Below are positions 7,030-60,291 of a stretch of 64,000 nucleotides of DNA, piece by piece (position 1 is the first letter of the stretch; each line of letters begins with the position of its first letter). Source of the stretch: Scytalidium lignicola. Lineage: Eukaryota > Ascomycota > Leotiomycetes. Location of the stretch: assembly GCA_002812745.2 (NCBI GenBank), contig NCSJ02000096.1, forward strand, positions 62,001 to 126,000, in the 5' to 3' direction. Both the position numbers and the translations under genes were made by a program. The notes beneath the pieces are model-generated. The model ran no database searches. It saw only the letters and a list, made by a program, of their open reading frames with translations, and was not told the DNA's origin.

Positions 7030-8945
7030 ATGCCTCACACAAACGGCGTAACCGCTTCGGCGTCCTTTTTTGGTGGTAACAGCCAAATCCAGGACCCGGC
7101 TACAGCGCTTGATGTACTCAAGGAATACAAGTATGCAGACGGACTTGATGTCCATAGTCTACTTGATTCTCGGGCCAATGGTGGATTGACCTACAATGAC
7201 TTTCTGGTTTTGCCTGGTTACATTGGGTTTGCAGCTTCAGAAGTCAATCTCGAGGCTCCAGTCACCAAGCGTATTACGCTGAAGACCCCATTTGTATCTT
7301 CTCCTATGGATACAGTGACAGAACATGAAATGGCTATTCATATAGCTCTTCAAGGAGGTTTAGGAGTGATTCACCACAACTGTTCTGCTGATGAGCAGGC
7401 GGAGATGGTACGAAAAGTTAAGCGCTACGAGAACGGCTTTATCTTGGATCCAGTCGTCTTGAACCGCAACACTACAGTTGGGGAGGTGAAAGCTCTCAAG
7501 GAGAAATGGGGATTTGGTGGATTCCCAGTGACTGGTTAGTATTTTTATCTTTATCTTTTATCTTTGGTGTTTTGATGGTGTTGCGCAACTCTTATGATTA
7601 AATAAAAAACTCAATAACTTTCGTTCATCCGTATTGACTGCAAGGTCGTGGGGATAAAAGTCTATGCTCTTAATGAAATAGTTTTACCAAAAACATATTG
7701 GAATAGTTAGTCTCATGCAAGTTTCAAATTTGCTAACTCGTTCCCAATTAGTCGATGGTAAACTCGGCACGAAGTTGGTGGGCATCGTCACGAACCGTGA
7801 CATCCAATTCGAAGATGACCTTAGCCTCCCTGTATCTGCCGTCATGGTAACTGATCTTGTTACCGCCGCTGCTGGAACTACACTGGTGGAAGCAAATGCC
7901 ATCCTCGCAAAATCGAAGAAGGGCAAGCTTCCTATAGTCGATAATGAAGGAAACTTGGTCTCCATGATCTCTCGATCTGATCTCACCAAGAATCTGCACT
8001 TCCCACTCGCTTCCAAACTTCCCGATTCTAAGCAGCTGATCTGCGCTGCTGCCATCGGTACCCGACCAGAGGATAAGATCCGTCTTCAGAAATTAGTTGA
8101 TGCTGGTCTTGATATCGTAGTTTTAGACAGCAGCCAGGGTAACAGCATGTACCAGATTGAGATGATCAAGTATGTTAAGGAGAAATATCCACTACTTGAC
8201 GTCATTGGTGGTAATGTTGTCACCCGCGAGCAAGCTGCTTCTCTCATTGCAGCCGGTGTAGATGGCTTGCGAATTGGTATGGGAAGTGGAAGTGCTTGTA
8301 TCACACAGGAAGTCATGGCTGTAGGCAGACCTCAAGCAGCAGCTGTTTACGCCGTCAGCTCCTTTGCAGCTAAGTTCGGCGTGCCCTGTATGGCTGATGG
8401 AGGAATTCAGAATGTGGGTCACATTGTCAAAGGACTTGCTCTAGGTGCAACTACTATTATGATGGGCGGTCTTCTTGCAGGCACTACTGAATCGCCAGGT
8501 ACATCCTTCGTTAGCAGGGAGGGTAAGCTTGTCAAGGCATACCGAGGAATGGGCAGTATCGACGCAATGCAAGACAAGAAAGCCGGTGCGGGTGCGAAAG
8601 ACAGCCAGAAGAGTAATGCTGGAACAGCAAGATACTTCTCTGAAGGAGATAGTGTGCTTGTAGCACAAGGTGTCTCTGGTGCTGTTGCTCACAGAGGGTA
8701 AGTTTATGTCTGCTCTAAGAATAGTATTCATCACATGCTAATACCATCTTAGTTCTGTCACCAAATTCGTTCCATATCTCGCAGCTGGGTTGAAACACTC
8801 TTTGCAAGATTGCGGACAGAAGAGCCTCGTAGACCTGCACAAATCCGTAACAAATGGCACCACTAGATTCGAGCTCCGTACCGCGAGTGCTCAATTAGAA
8901 GGTGGAGTCAACATGGAAAGTTATGAAAAGAAACTATATGCGTAG
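7030..8945 (+). CDS. IMD2: inosine-5'-monophosphate dehydrogenase
   Basis: Oxidises IMP to XMP with NAD+, the rate-limiting step to GMP and the target of mycophenolic acid. Exons are 7030-7534, 7752-8697 and 8753-8945, giving 547 aa (family about 520-550). The N-terminal TIM-barrel strands ([15 protein letters not shown]) are followed by an inserted CBS pair around residues 120-240. The catalytic loop [13 protein letters not shown] carries the nucleophilic Cys near residue 351. ADGGIQ, the GMMGG-type loop (MMGGLLAGT) and the flap YRGMGS follow. Intron 1 is long for this locus (217 nt), with repeated pyrimidine tracts and a GCTAAC branch site. The symbol follows yeast usage; filamentous fungi normally have one copy. 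Confidence 0.96.
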
Positions 8946-25511: not shown

Positions 25512-27216
25512 ATGGCAGACTCGTCACCCTCGATAGTTCAATGTGCGGTTGTGGCCACTGCATTCAAAGTGCTACTATTTCCCGCATAGTAAGTCGCTCT
25601 TCAATGAAGACCAGAGAGAATGCAAGAGCAGTCAAGACAAAGACGCGAAGACTGATTAGAAGATAGCAAATCCACCGATTTCGAGGTCCATAGGAACTGG
25701 CTTGCAATCACAAATAGTCTCCCAGTCCAGGAATGGTACTACGAGAAGACATCAGAATGGACTCTCGACTACCCGCCTTTCTTCGCGTACTTTGAATGGA
25801 TCCTATCACAGTGTGCGAAACTAGCTGATCCAGGAATGGTGGATGTTCATAATCTGGAATATGATAACTGGCAGACTGTGTATTTTCAGCGCTCAAGTGT
25901 CATAATCACTGAACTCCTCCTTGTCTATGCTGTCCATCTGTAAGACATATCTTAACACGTACTTGGTTATAGAGGTGCAGATGTTAATCACTTTTTAGCT
26001 ATGTCAAGTCCGCCCCGTCTTGGCTCAAGCGGCCTTCTCAAGCTGCCGCATTGTCCATCCTGCTCTCTCCTGGCCTCTTGATAATCGATCACATTCATTT
26101 CCAGTATAATGGCTTTCTTTATAGCATCCTCATTCTCTCCCTGGTCCTTGCACGGTCGAAATCCTATCTGGGCAGCGCGTTCCTCTTTGCTACTCTACTC
26201 TGCTTCAAACACATATACCTATACCTTGCACCAGCATATTTCGTATATTTGCTGCGGGTATACTGTCTAGGATCGAAATCGTTATTCCCAATCAAAATAA
26301 AGTTCTGGAATACGGTGAAGCTTGGCACTGGTGTCATAAGCATATTTACGATAGCATTCGCACCTTTTGCTTACTGGGGTCAAATTCCGCAGTTACTCAG
26401 CCGTCTTTTTCCGTTCTCGAGAGGCCTTTGTCATGCATACTGGGCTCCCAATATCTGGGCAATGTACTCCTTTACGGATAGAATCCTAATCTATGGTAAG
26501 TTGGATCTTAAACGTAGCTAAGAGCTCACCAAGCTGACAGACTTGTAGTGGCTCCAAGACTTGGCCTCTTAGTTAACAAAGAGGCTATTAACAGCGTTAC
26601 TCGTGGCCTTGTAGGCGATACCTCCTTTGCTGTGCTCCCAGAAATCACTCCAAAGGCCACCTTCGCACTCACACTTCTCTTTCAAATCATTCCTTTAATC
26701 AAGCTCTTCTTTGCGGATCATCCGTCATGGGATATGTTTATCGGTGCTGTTACCCTTTGTGGCTATGCATCTTTCCTCTTCGGCTGGCATGTCCATGAGA
26801 AAGCTATTCTTCTCGTTATTATTCCATTCAGCCTAATTGCACTCAAGGATCGTCGTTATCTCGGTGCCTTCCGGCCATTAGCGGTGGCAGGTCACGTCTC
26901 TCTCTTCCCTCTACTATTCACGGCGGCTGAATTTCCTATAAAGATCGTCTACACTATCATCTGGCTGGTCGTATTCCTTCTTGCTTTCGATAGACTGGCT
27001 CCTGCGTCTAACAGACCCAGAATATTCCTCCTTGACAGATTCAGCTTCCTTTATATCGCGGTCAGCATTCCGTTGATTCTCTACTGCTCTCTGTTACATC
27101 AGATAGTGTTTGGCAAGACATTTGAATTCCTGCCTTTGATGTTTACTAGTTCGTATTCGGCAGTTGGGGTTGTAGGTAGCTGGATAGGGTTTTTAGTAGT
27201 GTATTTTACATCATAG
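25512..27216 (+). CDS. ALG8: dolichyl-P-Glc glucosyltransferase Alg8
   Basis: Adds the second glucose to the dolichol-linked N-glycan precursor in the ER membrane. Four exons: 25512-25588, 25667-25939, 25999-26495 and 26549-27216 (introns 78, 59 and 53 nt), giving 504 aa with about ten hydrophobic segments. Family landmarks are the luminal [14 protein letters not shown] and [15 protein letters not shown], then [33 protein letters not shown] and [11 protein letters not shown]. The GLCHAYWAP block separates Alg8 from its paralogue Alg6. The ORF ends 485 bp before the remaining ADE2 coding sequence, and that gap is occupied by ADE2 debris. Confidence 0.94.
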
Positions 27217-27424
27217 GATTGTGCAATGATACCCAGTGTTTGAAAACGCAGATGGAGAATCTCTATATCTAATCTATTGTAGTAGACTGAAGAATAATCT
27301 TCTAAGAGCTTCAACGCCAAGTGTAGCAGCTACTGTAGCTCTAATGTACTAGAGATTACCAAGTATCAGACTGCAATTGTCTATGGAGATTCGTTCATTT
27401 CATCTGCATTTGTTCAAAATATTT

Positions 27425-27701
27425 CTCCCATTCCTAGATCCCTTATTTTAATACCCTTTATACCGGATTCTCCTCTTTATCATCTTTTGCGTATTGCTCT
27501 ACCTTTCTTTGCATTTCACATCAAAGCCCCCAGTTTTCTCACAGCTAATAAGGTTGCATCAGTGCTATTGTTAATTCCTACGACATACAGGTACGCCGCG
27601 GGACATCTGCGCTATATACGCCTATCGTATCGGCAAACCATAATAACCGCAACAGCAGGTGTAGGTTTAGAGGGAAGCGCAGGCCATTTTAGCTTAGAGG
27701 A
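27425..27701 (-). pseudogene. decayed PurE (AIR carboxylase) domain of ADE2
   Basis: Directly after the ADE2 stop codon the minus strand still carries pieces of the C-terminal PurE domain, in several frames. First comes SSK...PAVAVIM (start of PurE, normally followed by GSDSDLP). Then LPIR, a stop, AYIAQMSRGVPV (normally SIVQMPRGVPV), then after a frame change GINNSTDATLLAVR (normally INNSTNAALLAVR), and after another change EMQRKVEQYAKDD, like the family C-terminal helix. Roughly 110 codons between the PurE start and the SIVQM strand are missing. None of the lesions lies at an N or a long homopolymer. Confidence 0.8.
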
Positions 27702-28961
27702 TCAGTTATCCATGAAGTCGATAAGAGGCTGAATAATGAGTTCGGCTTCTGACATGGAAGGCGCAGTGACAGTAATATGACCCATTTTCCGGCCAGGTCT
27801 AGCATCACCTTTGCTATATAAGTGGATGCTCGCGTTTGGCACTGAAAGTGCCCGTTCAGTAAGTTTAAGATGTGAGTCTGGAGTGGAGCCCCCTAGGATA
27901 TTAAGCATAATTGCGGGTTCGCGAAGCTCAAGACTCTTTTGAGGAATTGGAAGGTCGAGAATTGCTCGTAGATGAGCATCAAATTGCGAGATTGAACAAC
28001 CTTCAATGGTGTAGTGTCCTGAGTTATGGATTCGACTTGCCAGTTCGCACAAAAGGAGTGAATCGTCTTCCAGAAGGAACATTTCCACTCCGAAAACTCC
28101 CTTTCCTTCGAACGCTGCTACTGCTTTCCGGGCAAGTTCTTGTGCTTTCTCATTAATCTCATCTGATATGTTCCGGGCCGGTGCATAAACCAACTTGCAG
28201 ATAGAATCCTCCTGGATTGTCTCAACGGTAGGATATGACATAACACCGTCCTTAGTTTTGACGACAATAACAGCCAATTCCTAATCTTCGAATTAGAAAG
28301 TTATATTATCTAAAGCGAGAAAACTGCTAGTCACCTTTTTAAAATGCGCCCATTTCTCGGCGTATAGTGGGCGTCCTTTCAGAGCTTCAAGTGCTTGTGG
28401 TATATCTGCTTTTGTCTTGACACTATAATTTCCTAAATCGCGGGTATAGTCAGATAATTTTACAATAAGAGGTTCAAAGCAGTATCTATTCATACCTCGA
28501 CCATCATAGGCGCCAGTCTTAGATTTTAGCATTAAAGGGTACCCAAGCTCCTCGCCAATTGCAGCCAGCTCCTCCTTACTGCAGCTCTGAAGTTCGCGAT
28601 ACTCAGCTTGTGGAATATTAAATTTTGCAAGGTGCTCCTTTTGTTGAAATTTGTCTTGAATAATCCGTATACTCTTCCAACTTGGTTCCACCTTAACCTC
28701 AGAAGCTACTGCCTCGAGACCATGGGTGTCGACATGTTCGATCTCAGTTGTCAGAACATCACTGACTTTTGCAAGTTTCCGTAAAGATTCCGTGTCTTTA
28801 AAGGACCCAGTAATATGGTTGTGGTGAGCGCTGATCTGCTTAGCTGGGGCATTTTCAGCATCGAGAATATTCATTTGGATATTTAGTCGATTTGCAGCTT
28901 CCATGAGCATTCTCCCCAACTGGCCACCACCGAGCACACCAACTCTCTGAGACGATGCCAT
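27702..28961 (-). CDS. ADE2: ADE2 N-terminal PurK-like half only (truncated)
   Basis: In fungi Ade2 is a fusion of a PurK-like ATP-grasp enzyme (N5-CAIR synthetase) and a C-terminal PurE mutase, about 570 aa. Here exons 28961-28335 and 28280-27702 (54-nt intron) encode only 401 aa. The intact part has GVLGGGQLGRML, the ATP-grasp motifs KSKTGAYDGRGM and GVFGVEMF, CELASRIHNSGH and the C-terminal MGHITVTAPS. The frame then ends at TGA after LIDFMDN, just where the linker to PurE should begin. The remainder survives only as fragments (annotated downstream). The PurK half shows no lesions. It could still make N5-CAIR, but PurE activity must come from elsewhere for purine prototrophy. Confidence 0.88.
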
Positions 28962-29237
28962 TGTAAAGACAGCAGTTGTGAAACTAGATGCAATAGGCTC
29001 AATGGGTTATTTACATCGAGTCAGTAAATCAGGCCTATAATTCTTGACAAGGCTGATGAAGTGGGATTCTTTCTTCGGCAACTTTTTTTTTGGCGGGGAG
29101 ATGCCGATAAGACGCTAATCTTTTGCCATAACTGTAACTAGTGAGCCCGATAACGATAAGATATATTTACGAGGAAAATTTAGCCTCATCATCAAAACCG
29201 ACTACAATCATTCTGCCCCAAGCAATTGCGGTACTCC

Positions 29238-31150
29238 ATGGCCCCTACTGATGGGAAACTGAAGGATCCCAGGGCCTGGGATGCCTTAACTCCTCCACTG
29301 GCAGAATGGATATTAGATGCGATATCAGCTATGGGTTTCGACAAAATGACTCCTGTCCAGGCAGCTACTATACCTCTATTCATAGGGAACAAAGATGTAG
29401 TTGTTGAAGTAAGTGCCAATGAGCTTCATGTGCCAACTTATACACTTACATCTTTCAGGCTGTCACAGGTAGTGGGAAAACGCTATCTTTCTTGTTACCT
29501 GTAGTACAAAAGCTATTGCGACAGCCAATTTTAAAATACAACATCGGCGCTATTATTATTTCTCCAACCCGAGAACTCGCAGTGCAGATAAACTCGGTCC
29601 TGGTTTCGCTCTTAGCTTTTCATGCGCCCTCTGCTGATGCCATGAAAGTTTTGGAGGAAGGGGAGAAGAGGAAGATAGGAGCGACTCCGTCAATCGTTCC
29701 ACAACTATTAATCGGCGGGAAAATATCTCCAGCTGAAGATATTAAAATTTTTCTAAAAAATAGCCCCAATCTTTTAATAGGGACACCCGGCCGTCTTCTT
29801 GAACTCCTATCTTCCCCTCACGTTCAGTGCCCGCAGTCTTCATTCGAGGTCCTTGTGTTAGATGAGGCGGACCGCCTTCTCGATCTTGGTTTCAAAAATG
29901 ATCTGCAATCGATTCTCAGTCGCCTACCAAAACAACGACGAACAGGGTTATTTAGTGCTAGTGTCAGTGAGGCTGTGGGAGAGATTGTCAGAGTTGGGTT
30001 GAGAAATCCGGTGAAGATCGCGGTCAAAGTCAAGGGAGCTGGTGGAGAGGGGAAACGTACTCCTGCCAGTCTACAAATGTCCTACTTGGTGACTCCTCCA
30101 ACCCATAAGCTTCCTGCACTATTTTCACTCCTGTCACAATTGGAACCGACTCCTCAAAAATCCATCGTCTATCTATCAACCTGTGCTGCAGTGGACTATT
30201 TCCAACATCTGCTTACCGTGTTATTACCAAGTCAATTTTCCTTAATACCATTGCATGGCAAGCACCCGCCAGCGAAGAGAGAGAAGAATTACTCAAAATT
30301 TGTCACCGCTGTTTCTCCATCCATCCTCCTTACAACAGACGTTGCAGCACGTGGATTAGACATCCCTGAGGCGGAACTGGTGGTCCAGATTGACCCACCA
30401 TCGGACCCCAAAGTCTTCTTACATAGGAATGGAAGAGTTGGAAGGGGAGGAAGAAAGGGATTGAGTGTAATATTTTTGCAACCAGGAAGAGAAGAGGATT
30501 ATATAACATTCCTAGAGGTCCGAAAGACACCAATAACGTTGCTCCAAAAACCTACTATTACAGTAACTCCTGAAGATGCTCGGCTAGCCACATCAAAGTT
30601 ACGAGCTGAAGTACTCAGCGATCGGGCTCTATATGACAAAGGTCAGCGAGCATTTGTTAGTTGGCTCAAATCATATTCCAAACATGAGGCAAGTTCAATT
30701 TTTCGAGTGGCCGATCTTGATTGGACTGAACTGGGTAACGCATGGGGTTTAGTCCGTCTCCCTAAGATGCCTGAGCTGAAGGCCTGGAAAGGCGATAGAA
30801 CCCTCGGTGTAAAAGTAGATATGTCAGAGTATGCATACAAGGACAAGACCCGAGAAAAGGCTAGAAGAATAGCGATGGAGGAAGCAAAGAACGCGGGGCC
30901 ATATGTACCAAGTGAAGAGGCTTTAAAAAAGAGGAAAGTACGGGAAGCTTGGAGCCATAAACATGAACAGCATGATCTAAAAGAGGAAAGAAGGGAAAAG
31001 AAGAAGAGGAAGAGAGAAGCCGAGAGGTTAGCAAAGATGACCCCAGAAGAGCTAGAAAAGGAGAAGGAAGTGCAGCGTCTAATCGCTGAGGTTAAACGTA
31101 AGAAGCTTGAAGCAGATGGTGAGGAGGAATTTCAAGGGTTTGATGATTAG
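29238..31150 (+). CDS. SPB4: ATP-dependent rRNA helicase Spb4 (DEAD box)
   Basis: Pre-60S helicase that remodels 27S pre-rRNA. Exons are 29238-29408 and 29459-31150 (50-nt intron), giving 620 aa (yeast 606). The N-terminus [16 protein letters not shown] and [12 protein letters not shown] are typical of Spb4. [11 protein letters not shown] spans the intron join. The core continues with [26 protein letters not shown] in place of [14 protein letters not shown] and [10 protein letters not shown]. The C-terminal domain has [23 protein letters not shown] and a Lys/Glu-rich tail. Head-to-head with ADE2 over 276 bp. Confidence 0.95.
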
Positions 31151-57566: not shown

Positions 57567-60291
57567 ATGCCGGAAAAGGTGCACAAAAAGTTCGGCGGCG
57601 ACGAGGAAGTAGTAGGAAAGATTGCAACAAAGACGACTGGTTTGCATACATCAGATGCTAGGAAAACCAATAGTCCACGCCCTCATGACATGCGCGCCGG
57701 TTTATCGAGCTCGACCAGCGTAAAACGAGCCAGAGATGGCACGACGAAGACGAATTCCGCAAACGGCGACAGCTCGAAAACAAATCTCCTACACAGCAAC
57801 AGTCAATTAAAGAGCAGCAGTCCTCAATTGAAACAAAGCCAGGCCAGAAAATGGGATCCATCCGCACCTAAAGAGCGTAAGGTTGGGGTAGCCCAGCAAC
57901 ATCAAGGCACACGATCTCTGCCATATAACCCCGAGAAAGCAGGAACTCAAGCTCCCCCCAAACAAGGCCTGCAAAAAATCGCGACAGATCTACTGAAACT
58001 ACGCAAAGCATTACCCATATGGGCCAAACAGGCGGATATTCGGTGGAGTCTACGGAACCATGATGTTCTGCTCTTAGTCGGTGAAACTGGTTCGGGAAAG
58101 AGTACGCAGGTTCCGCAGTTTCTGTATACCGAGCCGTGGTGTAAGAAGCAGAAGGTAAAGGTTAAGAATGCAGAGGGACAGGAGCAGGAGATATCTGTTG
58201 GAGGCGTTATTGCCGTGACGGAACCTCGTCGAGTGGCTGCCACGACGCTGGCTCGCCGTGTTGCGGCCGAGATGGGTTCNTTTTTTACCAGGTACCAAAG
58301 GCGAGAAGATGGCTGGAACAGTGGGTTACTCTGTGCGCTTTGATTCAAATATTCCAATTGGCACCAAGATCAAGTTTGTCACGGAAGGAACGCTGTTACA
58401 TGAAATGCTTCATGACCCTTACCTCCGACAGTACAGTGCTGTCGTGGTGGATGAAATCCACGAGAGAAGTGTTGACGTTGATCTCATTGCTGGATTTTTA
58501 AGACAAATTGTCCATAGCGACAACAAAGCTCGCGGAGGGATCCCATTGAAGGTGATTATAATGAGTGCTACTCTTGACCTTGGTGGCTTAGAAGCTTTCT
58601 TTTCAAAGCCAGAGGCTTTGCCAAGCTACAAGCCGGGCAATAATAGCAAAGGGAAATTTGCAGCTCATCTTTTGGATGAAGCAAATGGTGATGCAAAAGC
58701 CTCTGAGAGTACGAGTACTTCTGATAATCCGTCTCGACCCTCTTCACCCGATTCATTTTCTTCGTGGAGCGGATTTAGTTCATCAGAGAGTGAAAACAAA
58801 GAAGAAAATAAGGTTGCAAAATCCTTACCGAATGGAGATTCTACGTCAAAAAAGAATCCCATACCAGAAACTGTGGAGAGCGGCGTTGATGTTCAGTACA
58901 TCAAAGGTCGACAACATAAGGTGGACTTGTTCTACACTGATGGCCCCGTACCAGATTTCTTGGATTCAATGTTCAATACGATAATGAAGATAAACATTAC
59001 TGAGCCATTACCAGGAGATATTCTTGCTTTCCTGCCTGGTCAAGAACACATTGAACTCCTGCAAGCACGACTCGAAGATGCTGCTATAAATCTTGTTAAG
59101 ACCGTTCCTAGAATCAAAGTGTTACCTTTATATGGGGCTCTGCCTGCTGCGGCCCAACAAGCATCCTTTGAAAAAGTCAAGGAAAAATTCACCCGGAAGA
59201 TTGTACTCGCTACAAATATCGCTGAAACTTCAGTTACAGTCTCGGGTGTACGACATGTCGTCGACTGTGGAAAGGCTAAAGTTAAGCAATATCGTCCTCG
59301 TCTTGGAATGGAGTCTCTGCTCGCAAAGCCCATATCCAGAGTATCTGCGATCCAGCGGAAAGGTCGTGCCGGTCGAGAAGCCCCTGGGAAATGCTACAGA
59401 CTATACACAGAGGAAGATTACCTCAAACTGGACATGGATGAAACCCCGGAGATTCTGCGCAGTGATGTAGTGGAGGCAGTATTGAAGATGAAAGCTCGAG
59501 GGGTGGATGATGTTCTCTCCTTTCCGTTGATGGATTCACCGGATGTCGTCGCTATGGAAAAAGCACTCTTACAACTTTATGTAATGGGTGCTTTAGATTC
59601 TAATGGAAAGTTGAGTGAAATGGGAAGGAAAATAGCCGCCTACCCACTTCCTGCGGCATATGGTAGAGTGCTTATCGCAGCTGCTGAACCGGAGGCGGAT
59701 TGCCTTGTTGAAGCAATCGATGTCATCTCCTGTCTAACAGCAGACAGTGAGATTTTCATGCAGGGAAAGAACGATGATGAGAGAGAAGATGTTGAAGAAT
59801 ATCGAAAGGAACTCATTCGACGAGAAGGAGATATACTAACCTATCTTAACACAATGCAACGCTACGCTGCGGAGAACACTGACCGTGGCGAATGGTGCCG
59901 CAAACGCCTAATATCCACTCGAGCTATGAAAATGGCGATGGATATCAGGAAACAGCTTCGCAAAGTCTGCCATGAGCAAAAGCTACTACCCGATCTTCCT
60001 CCTGCTGACCCGCAACCATTCGATCCGATTTCTCCTGAACGTGCCGAATCTCTCCTCCTAGCATTTCTCAAGGCATTTGCTACCAGGACAGCAATACTTG
60101 CTCCAGATGGTAGCTACCATACAATTCAAGGCAAGCATGCAATCTCAATTCATCCAAGCAGTGTACTATTTAATCAGAAAAAAGAGGCGATCATGTTTTT
60201 GGAGAATGTGTTTACTGCTAAGAATTTCGCGAAGAAAGTCAGTGCAGTACAAGCAAATTGGATTCTAGACGTGCTTGAAGGTCAACCGTAA
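57567..60291 (+). CDS. DHR2: DEAH-box RNA helicase Dhr2
   Basis: Nucleolar helicase of rRNA processing. A single coding exon of about 907 aa once the N at 58280 is omitted. With that N the frame breaks after AAEMG; without it the reading is GSFLPGTKGEKMAGTVGYSVRF. A disordered basic N-terminus (about 130 aa) precedes the helicase core. The core has LPIWAKQADI, GETGSGKSTQVPQF, TEPRRVAA, VVDEIHERSVD, MSATLDL, TNIAETSVT and QRKGRAGREAPG. A Ser-rich insert (about 370-440) interrupts the first RecA lobe's end. The winged-helix, ratchet and OB domains follow. Ecm16/Dhr1 is the closest alternative, but that family is much longer. Confidence 0.9.

Follow-up and report, generated by a model that had tools for sequence, protein, structure and literature searches.

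Three described systems lie closest to this locus: the bifunctional Ade2 of fungi, in which PurK and PurE are fused, the free-standing PurK of bacteria, and xenologous gene displacement, a general phenomenon in fungi. In bacteria, N5-CAIR must diffuse between separate PurK and PurE enzymes. The native ADE2 gene described here (copy A) shares features with each of these systems. Its PurK half is 90% identical to that of the Ade2 of Xylogone sp. PMI_703 (P0002, 569 aa), which is its closest full-length relative among the matches listed, and the remains of its PurE half can be aligned with this protein to the last residue. In contrast to the fungal enzyme, the PurE of copy A is dead, with most of the conserved core deleted, and the frame ends in the linker. 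Copy A has the same three domains as bacterial free-standing PurK and almost the same length; chains of stand-alone PurK with 355-389 residues, which we take to be bacterial, match it. Unlike these enzymes, copy A does not descend from a bacterial purK but is derived from a fungal fusion gene, and it is most closely related to Ade2 proteins of fungi. The combination of a complete copy of foreign type (copy B) and a decaying native copy resembles xenologous gene displacement, whereas here the native copy has decayed only as far as the boundary between its domains, with its remaining half apparently kept. What is probably new is this pairing of a native fusion gene, of which a live-looking half is left, with a whole gene of probably horizontal origin; no report of such an ADE2 case was found in the open-licence papers searched.

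The window, i.e. the whole stretch of DNA that was analysed, comprises 64,000 nucleotides (C660:62001-126000) of an assembly with 664 contigs and a total length of 46.85 Mb (G000), which is deposited under the name of the Leotiomycete mould Scytalidium lignicola DSM 105466. All absences reported here apply to this assembly version, which is slightly below the published size. The published genome of Scytalidium lignicola DSM 105466 amounts to 47.7 Mb in 826 contigs, with a BUSCO score of 97.6% (PMC6256649). According to a later revision, the ITS of DSM 105466 differs by 10.1% from that of the S. lignicola type strain (PMC12541464), which makes the species name doubtful; the organism may be another species.

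Copy A and the remains of its PurE half

Copy A is encoded on the minus strand. Exon 1 (28496..28961) begins with the start ATG at 28961 and is followed by intron 1 (28433..28495, 63 nt, GT...AG), exon 2 (28335..28432), intron 2 (28281..28334, 54 nt, GT...AG), and exon 3 (27702..28280), with the splicing read from the sequence. Exon 3 ends in a premature TGA (27704-27702), located in the PurK-PurE linker; a TGA directly after PurK was what the original prediction had described. The spliced product consists of 380 amino acids and is 100% identical over 380 aa to the public record B7463_g5740 (P0001). It matches the preATP-grasp (PF22660), ATP-grasp (PF02222), and PurK_C (PF17769) families, all above cut-off. 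Copy A is a complete PurK open frame that closes after an entire PurK_C domain, with no PurE (AIRC) domain in frame with PurK. The PurK half is intact, as predicted, given that the two introns, which had gone unmentioned, are removed. Residues 3-379 align gap-free with 3k5i, the isolated and solved PurK domain of a close homologue, presumably from Aspergillus clavatus. The 3k5i chain ends four residues past this match, and the stop of copy A falls almost at the crystallography cut.

Copy A is flanked by two genes on the plus strand. The convergent neighbour is an ALG8/ALG6-type glucosyltransferase (26051..27216), composed of two long frames with a probable intron between them; these match positions 126-270 and 273-481 of the Pfam family Alg6_Alg8, and the second frame occurs once in the assembly. 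The divergent neighbour is an SPB4-like rRNA helicase (29226..31150, where 29226 is the start suggested by the frame list), whose frame at 29492-31150 matches DEAD, Helicase_C, CTE_SPB4, and CTT_SPB4.

Past the TGA, a frame-tolerant alignment reveals PurE debris in several frames, which starts in the linker and extends as far as the former C-terminus and its stop codon (27395..27701, minus strand). Together, gene and debris occupy 27395-28961. When aligned with the PurE half of Xylogone, the segment 27425-27701 (277 nt) reaches a score of 165.5, far beyond chance, compared to a mean of 26.8 and a maximum of 35 in 40 mononucleotide shuffles. This bears out the central claim of the original prediction, the loss of PurE beside an intact PurK. 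The pieces keep the PurE order to the C-terminal end, where WEKYFEQMQMK is followed by a TGA at 27397-27395; the debris reaches this old stop and does not end at 27425, as had been stated. When the assembly was searched with the Xylogone PurE, the debris was recovered at C660:89398-89523 (window 27398-27523) with an E-value of 4.8e-6 and four internal stops. The family search gave no AIRC match on C660.

The debris carries two deletions. The first spans Xylogone residues 403-474 and takes out the motifs GSDSD (403), SAHRTP (432), and GGAAHLPGM (460), while the second removes ~13 codons, corresponding to Xylogone residues about 481-493. They sum to about 85 codons, fewer than the loss of about 110 that had been proposed. 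The alignment marks seven frame changes. Two coincide with the junctions of the deletions, and the others, about five, are small, with sizes that vary with the alignment. More lesions are seen in this Ion Torrent draft sequence than the at least two stops and two frame changes noted at the outset, as the tally now includes the TGA, two deletions, and about five small frame changes. Neither deletion junction lies at an N, in line with the statement that the lesions sit away from ambiguous bases. Because most of the conserved core has been deleted, no frameshifting could rescue PurE. Within the alignable debris, 50/66 residues are the same as in Xylogone and 20/23 strongly conserved columns are kept. 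Given this moderate divergence, PurE may have been lost not long ago, and the numbers that favour subsequent selection on PurK are consequently modest.

A second, complete ADE2 gene

The original prediction expected the loss of PurE to block purine synthesis, and listed a separate PurE gene elsewhere among the ways in which the fungus might cope, to be sought with a profile search of the whole assembly. AIR carboxylase family matches above cut-off occur at a single gene, on contig C144. This gene is a whole ADE2 and not a separate PurE, although the latter comes nearest among the options proposed. Copy B is located at about C144:77240-79140 on the minus strand and comprises both PurK and PurE domains, as seen from Pfam matches of its public model (P0121) and from the exons read. 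In view of this second gene with both domains, the expected block is not supported. Being complete, copy B can cover the missing PurE step, with no apparent need for outside purines, and purine auxotrophy was rejected as the default reading.

Copy B has two introns at positions other than those in copy A, and the two copies are 44% identical over PurK (172/394 positions). The PurE part of copy B contains a single N that shifts the reading frame of the deposited sequence and has no long homopolymer next to it; P0121 (572 aa) skips around this base. We take this N to be an assembly ambiguity, because 10 of the 12 single Ns in the window (2749, 3378, 12757, 15038, 16680, 19490, 23156, 33260, 49064, 49073, 49938, and 58280) adjoin a run of at least four equal bases, and because the N at 58280 likewise breaks a helicase, splitting it into the overlapping frames 57567-58343 and 58258-60291. 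Copy B breaks 5/145 conserved PurK columns (Biscogniauxia 6/145, Monosporascus 3/144) and 2/71 conserved PurE columns (Biscogniauxia 1/84, Monosporascus 2/84). A reciprocal loss, with copy B losing PurK and copy A losing PurE, is not indicated, as these counts are comparable to those of its relatives. Copy B is among the more divergent rows, at zero-based places 99 (PurK) and 85 (PurE) of 109, and its end branch measures 0.16 compared to 0.056 and 0.076 in its two nearest relatives, about twice as fast. For the later purine pathway, the assembly contains a long ADE16/17-type frame and an ADE1-type exon above cut-off (L019, C222:244003-244209), where the family match covers 70/233 positions. 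A broken ADE1 was considered on account of this short match; the reading frames suggest instead a probably intron-rich gene with many short exons.

The best relatives of copy B are found in Monosporascus (81%), Biscogniauxia (79%), Trichoderma (71-75%), and Fusarium (67-73%), and no Xylogone or Amorphotheca row appears among the best 120 of 7981 hits. The cluster of P0121 has one member. Of the 240 listed ADE2 proteins, 59 were placed in a quick tree. It contains two deep types; copy A stands beside Xylogone, whereas copy B belongs to the Sordariomycete type. In a 35-row tree, copy B joins Monosporascus and Biscogniauxia at 100/99. AU tests reject a position of copy B outside all other 31 B-type rows (p 0.0016), outside the set of 24 non-basal Sordariomycete rows (p 7e-25), and outside the group of eight rows from Trichoderma, Fusarium, and Xylariales (p 0.0022). 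We place weight on these three, since another AU test (p 6.65e-5) holds out nested lichen rows as well as copy B.

Copy B is flanked by an RRM gene (L003 1815-2746) and PEX5 (L003 7034-9114), both on the strand opposite copy B. In Sclerophora and Bipolaris, which belong to two other classes and account for 2 of the 120 listed PEX5 rows, one gene model runs a homologous RRM protein into PEX5. The RRM gene and PEX5 thus appear to be ancestral neighbours, and copy B looks inserted between them. PEX5 occurs once in the assembly, and its best named relatives among the 120 rows listed are Leotiomycetes (Cudoniella, Phialocephala, Venustampulla), which marks C144 as a native contig; a contaminant contig as the source of copy B was rejected on these grounds. 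As a whole, copy B is probably a horizontal gain with Sordariomycete affinity, a transfer whose direction we infer.

A mobile element carrying copy B finds no support in the repeat search, which returned no repeats of at least 16 bases in the copy B interval, or in the flank DNA, which is unique in the assembly except for one 100-base match. This match (L003:6485-6584, upstream of copy B) recurs 64 kb away at C144:143091-143190 with 93% identity over 100 bases, and few frames of at least 120 aa surround that site (2 in 9.9 kb). The B type is also carried by the lichen fungi Caloplaca, Xanthocarpia, and Xanthoria, in a patchy distribution. ADE2 proteins of the Caloplaca/Xanthoria group (P0190, P0211, P0214, P0215) are nested among Sordariomycete-type rows and are candidates for transfer or old paralogy. 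The ADE2 proteins of Biscogniauxia (P0123) and Camillea (P0165), which we take to be close relatives within the Xylariales, fall on different B-type branches. The history of ADE2 in Sordariomycetes looks tangled.

Probable retention of the PurK half and competing explanations

The PurK frame of copy A contains no lesion in 1143 nt, and both of its introns are readable. About eight lesions were counted, none in PurK and all in the third of the coding sequence that belongs to PurE; the chance of finding all lesions in this third is 4.4e-4 for seven and 1.6e-5 for ten. At the protein level, copy A breaks 0/165 PurK columns that are conserved at 95% or more in 119 other type-A proteins, level with 47 other rows. 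Its PurK differs from that of Xylogone at 39 positions, of which 10 are derived in copy A, 13 are derived in Xylogone, and 16 are unpolarised. Of 11 outgroup rows, six are nearer to the PurK of copy A than to that of Xylogone, three are equally distant from both, and for two the PurK of copy A is farther by one residue. The debris, counted over alignable residues only, differs from Xylogone at 16/66 residues compared to about 8 (12%) expected, with a binomial tail of 0.005. This expectation comes from a rough slope through the origin of PurE-tail against PurK divergence, used because the prediction became negative, and thus meaningless, once an intercept was fitted. Applied to PurK, the excess seen in the debris (about 12% of residues) corresponds to about 46 changes, and at most 26 are present. 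Most simply, these data may be read as continued selection on the PurK half after PurE was lost, with the protein-level rate and the lesion tests in agreement. Judged from its sequence, the PurK half of the native gene does not look like an evident relic, and copy A has most likely been retained in the role of a free-standing N5-CAIR synthetase, its activity being predicted. The original prediction had named a second complete ADE2, which would make copy A a paralogous relic, as the case that would refute it. Such a copy is present, but copy A is not simply a relic, since by sequence it is the copy shared with Xylogone (90%), copy B is the foreign-looking gene, and PurK shows no sign of relaxed constraint.

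We consider it probable that the native ADE2 is part-way through displacement by the horizontally gained, complete copy B, with its PurE half decayed and its PurK half kept. The complete gene would have arrived presumably before PurE was lost from the native gene. Copy B would then have supplied PurE, leaving the PurE half of the native gene free to decay. The PurK half, cut off by the TGA in the linker, would have been retained as a free-standing N5-CAIR synthetase that converts AIR, ATP, and bicarbonate into N5-CAIR, which may diffuse to the PurE domain of copy B. As copy B should also make its own N5-CAIR, the retention of the solo PurK is most likely, and most simply, explained by added capacity at the ATP-using step. 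We tentatively extend this to a possible un-fusing of Ade2 by evolution, in which the native solo PurK feeds N5-CAIR to the PurE of the foreign Ade2 in a working division of labour. A strict division is not indicated, given that the PurK of copy B is without clear decay. If true, this would be a natural example of a fungal two-enzyme fusion that is breaking up while the remains of its lost half can still be read, and of horizontal gene displacement caught at the level of single domains in a core pathway. This makes the need for a PurK-PurE fusion in fungi testable. For annotation, the case would be a warning that a PurK entry standing by itself and labelled 'partial' may be genuine, and that auxotrophy does not have to follow from the absence of a domain.

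The displacement could also be complete, copy A being a plain pseudogene whose PurK looks intact because the loss is recent. With both domains present in copy B, the PurK of copy A is dispensable, and the debris, at 50/66 identical residues, has diverged only moderately. Against this somewhat doubtful reading stand the lesion-free frame with its readable introns and the number of PurK changes, 10 polarised (26 at most) and 13 in Xylogone, where a debris-like excess would require about 46. It is fairly unlikely that A and B are instead ancient ADE2 paralogs, with B lost in other Leotiomycetes. The great age of the two types (44% identity), their patchy occurrence, including in the three lichen genera, and the separation of Biscogniauxia from Camillea fit such a history; the nesting of copy B with Monosporascus and Biscogniauxia (AU p 0.0016 and 0.0022) and its position between apparent ancestral neighbours speak against it. 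Old paralogy would alter the origin of copy B and not the rescue of PurE.

Two further explanations deny either the lesions or their rescue. The real gene might be a whole ADE2 that the draft renders wrongly at the debris, as the data are Ion Torrent, with ~5 million reads, each 140-260 bases long, covering 47.7 Mb (PMC6256649), several of the small lesions are single-base, and the 12 single Ns of the window point to doubtful base calls. We regard this as very unlikely, since about 85 deleted codons, a nonsense codon that was not created by an indel, and residue changes are not base-calling errors, the deletion junctions are free of Ns, and unflagged frame breaks are uncommon nearby, with none in the 590 codons of PEX5 or the 552 of the SPB4-like helicase. 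Scarcely credible, in our view, is a fungus devoid of PurE activity and dependent on outside purines. The strain was isolated and grown as a pure culture on malt medium (PMC6256649), and the ambiguous base changes the frame of copy B as written; however, the B type includes FGSG_10669 (P0149), which a review lists as FgAde2 of Fusarium graminearum (PMC10879430), and the ADE16/17-type frame and the ADE1-type exon are present.

The window contains a further long frame at 7715-8701 (328 aa), 20 kb from ADE2. By its motifs it resembles what we take to be IMP dehydrogenase, another purine enzyme.
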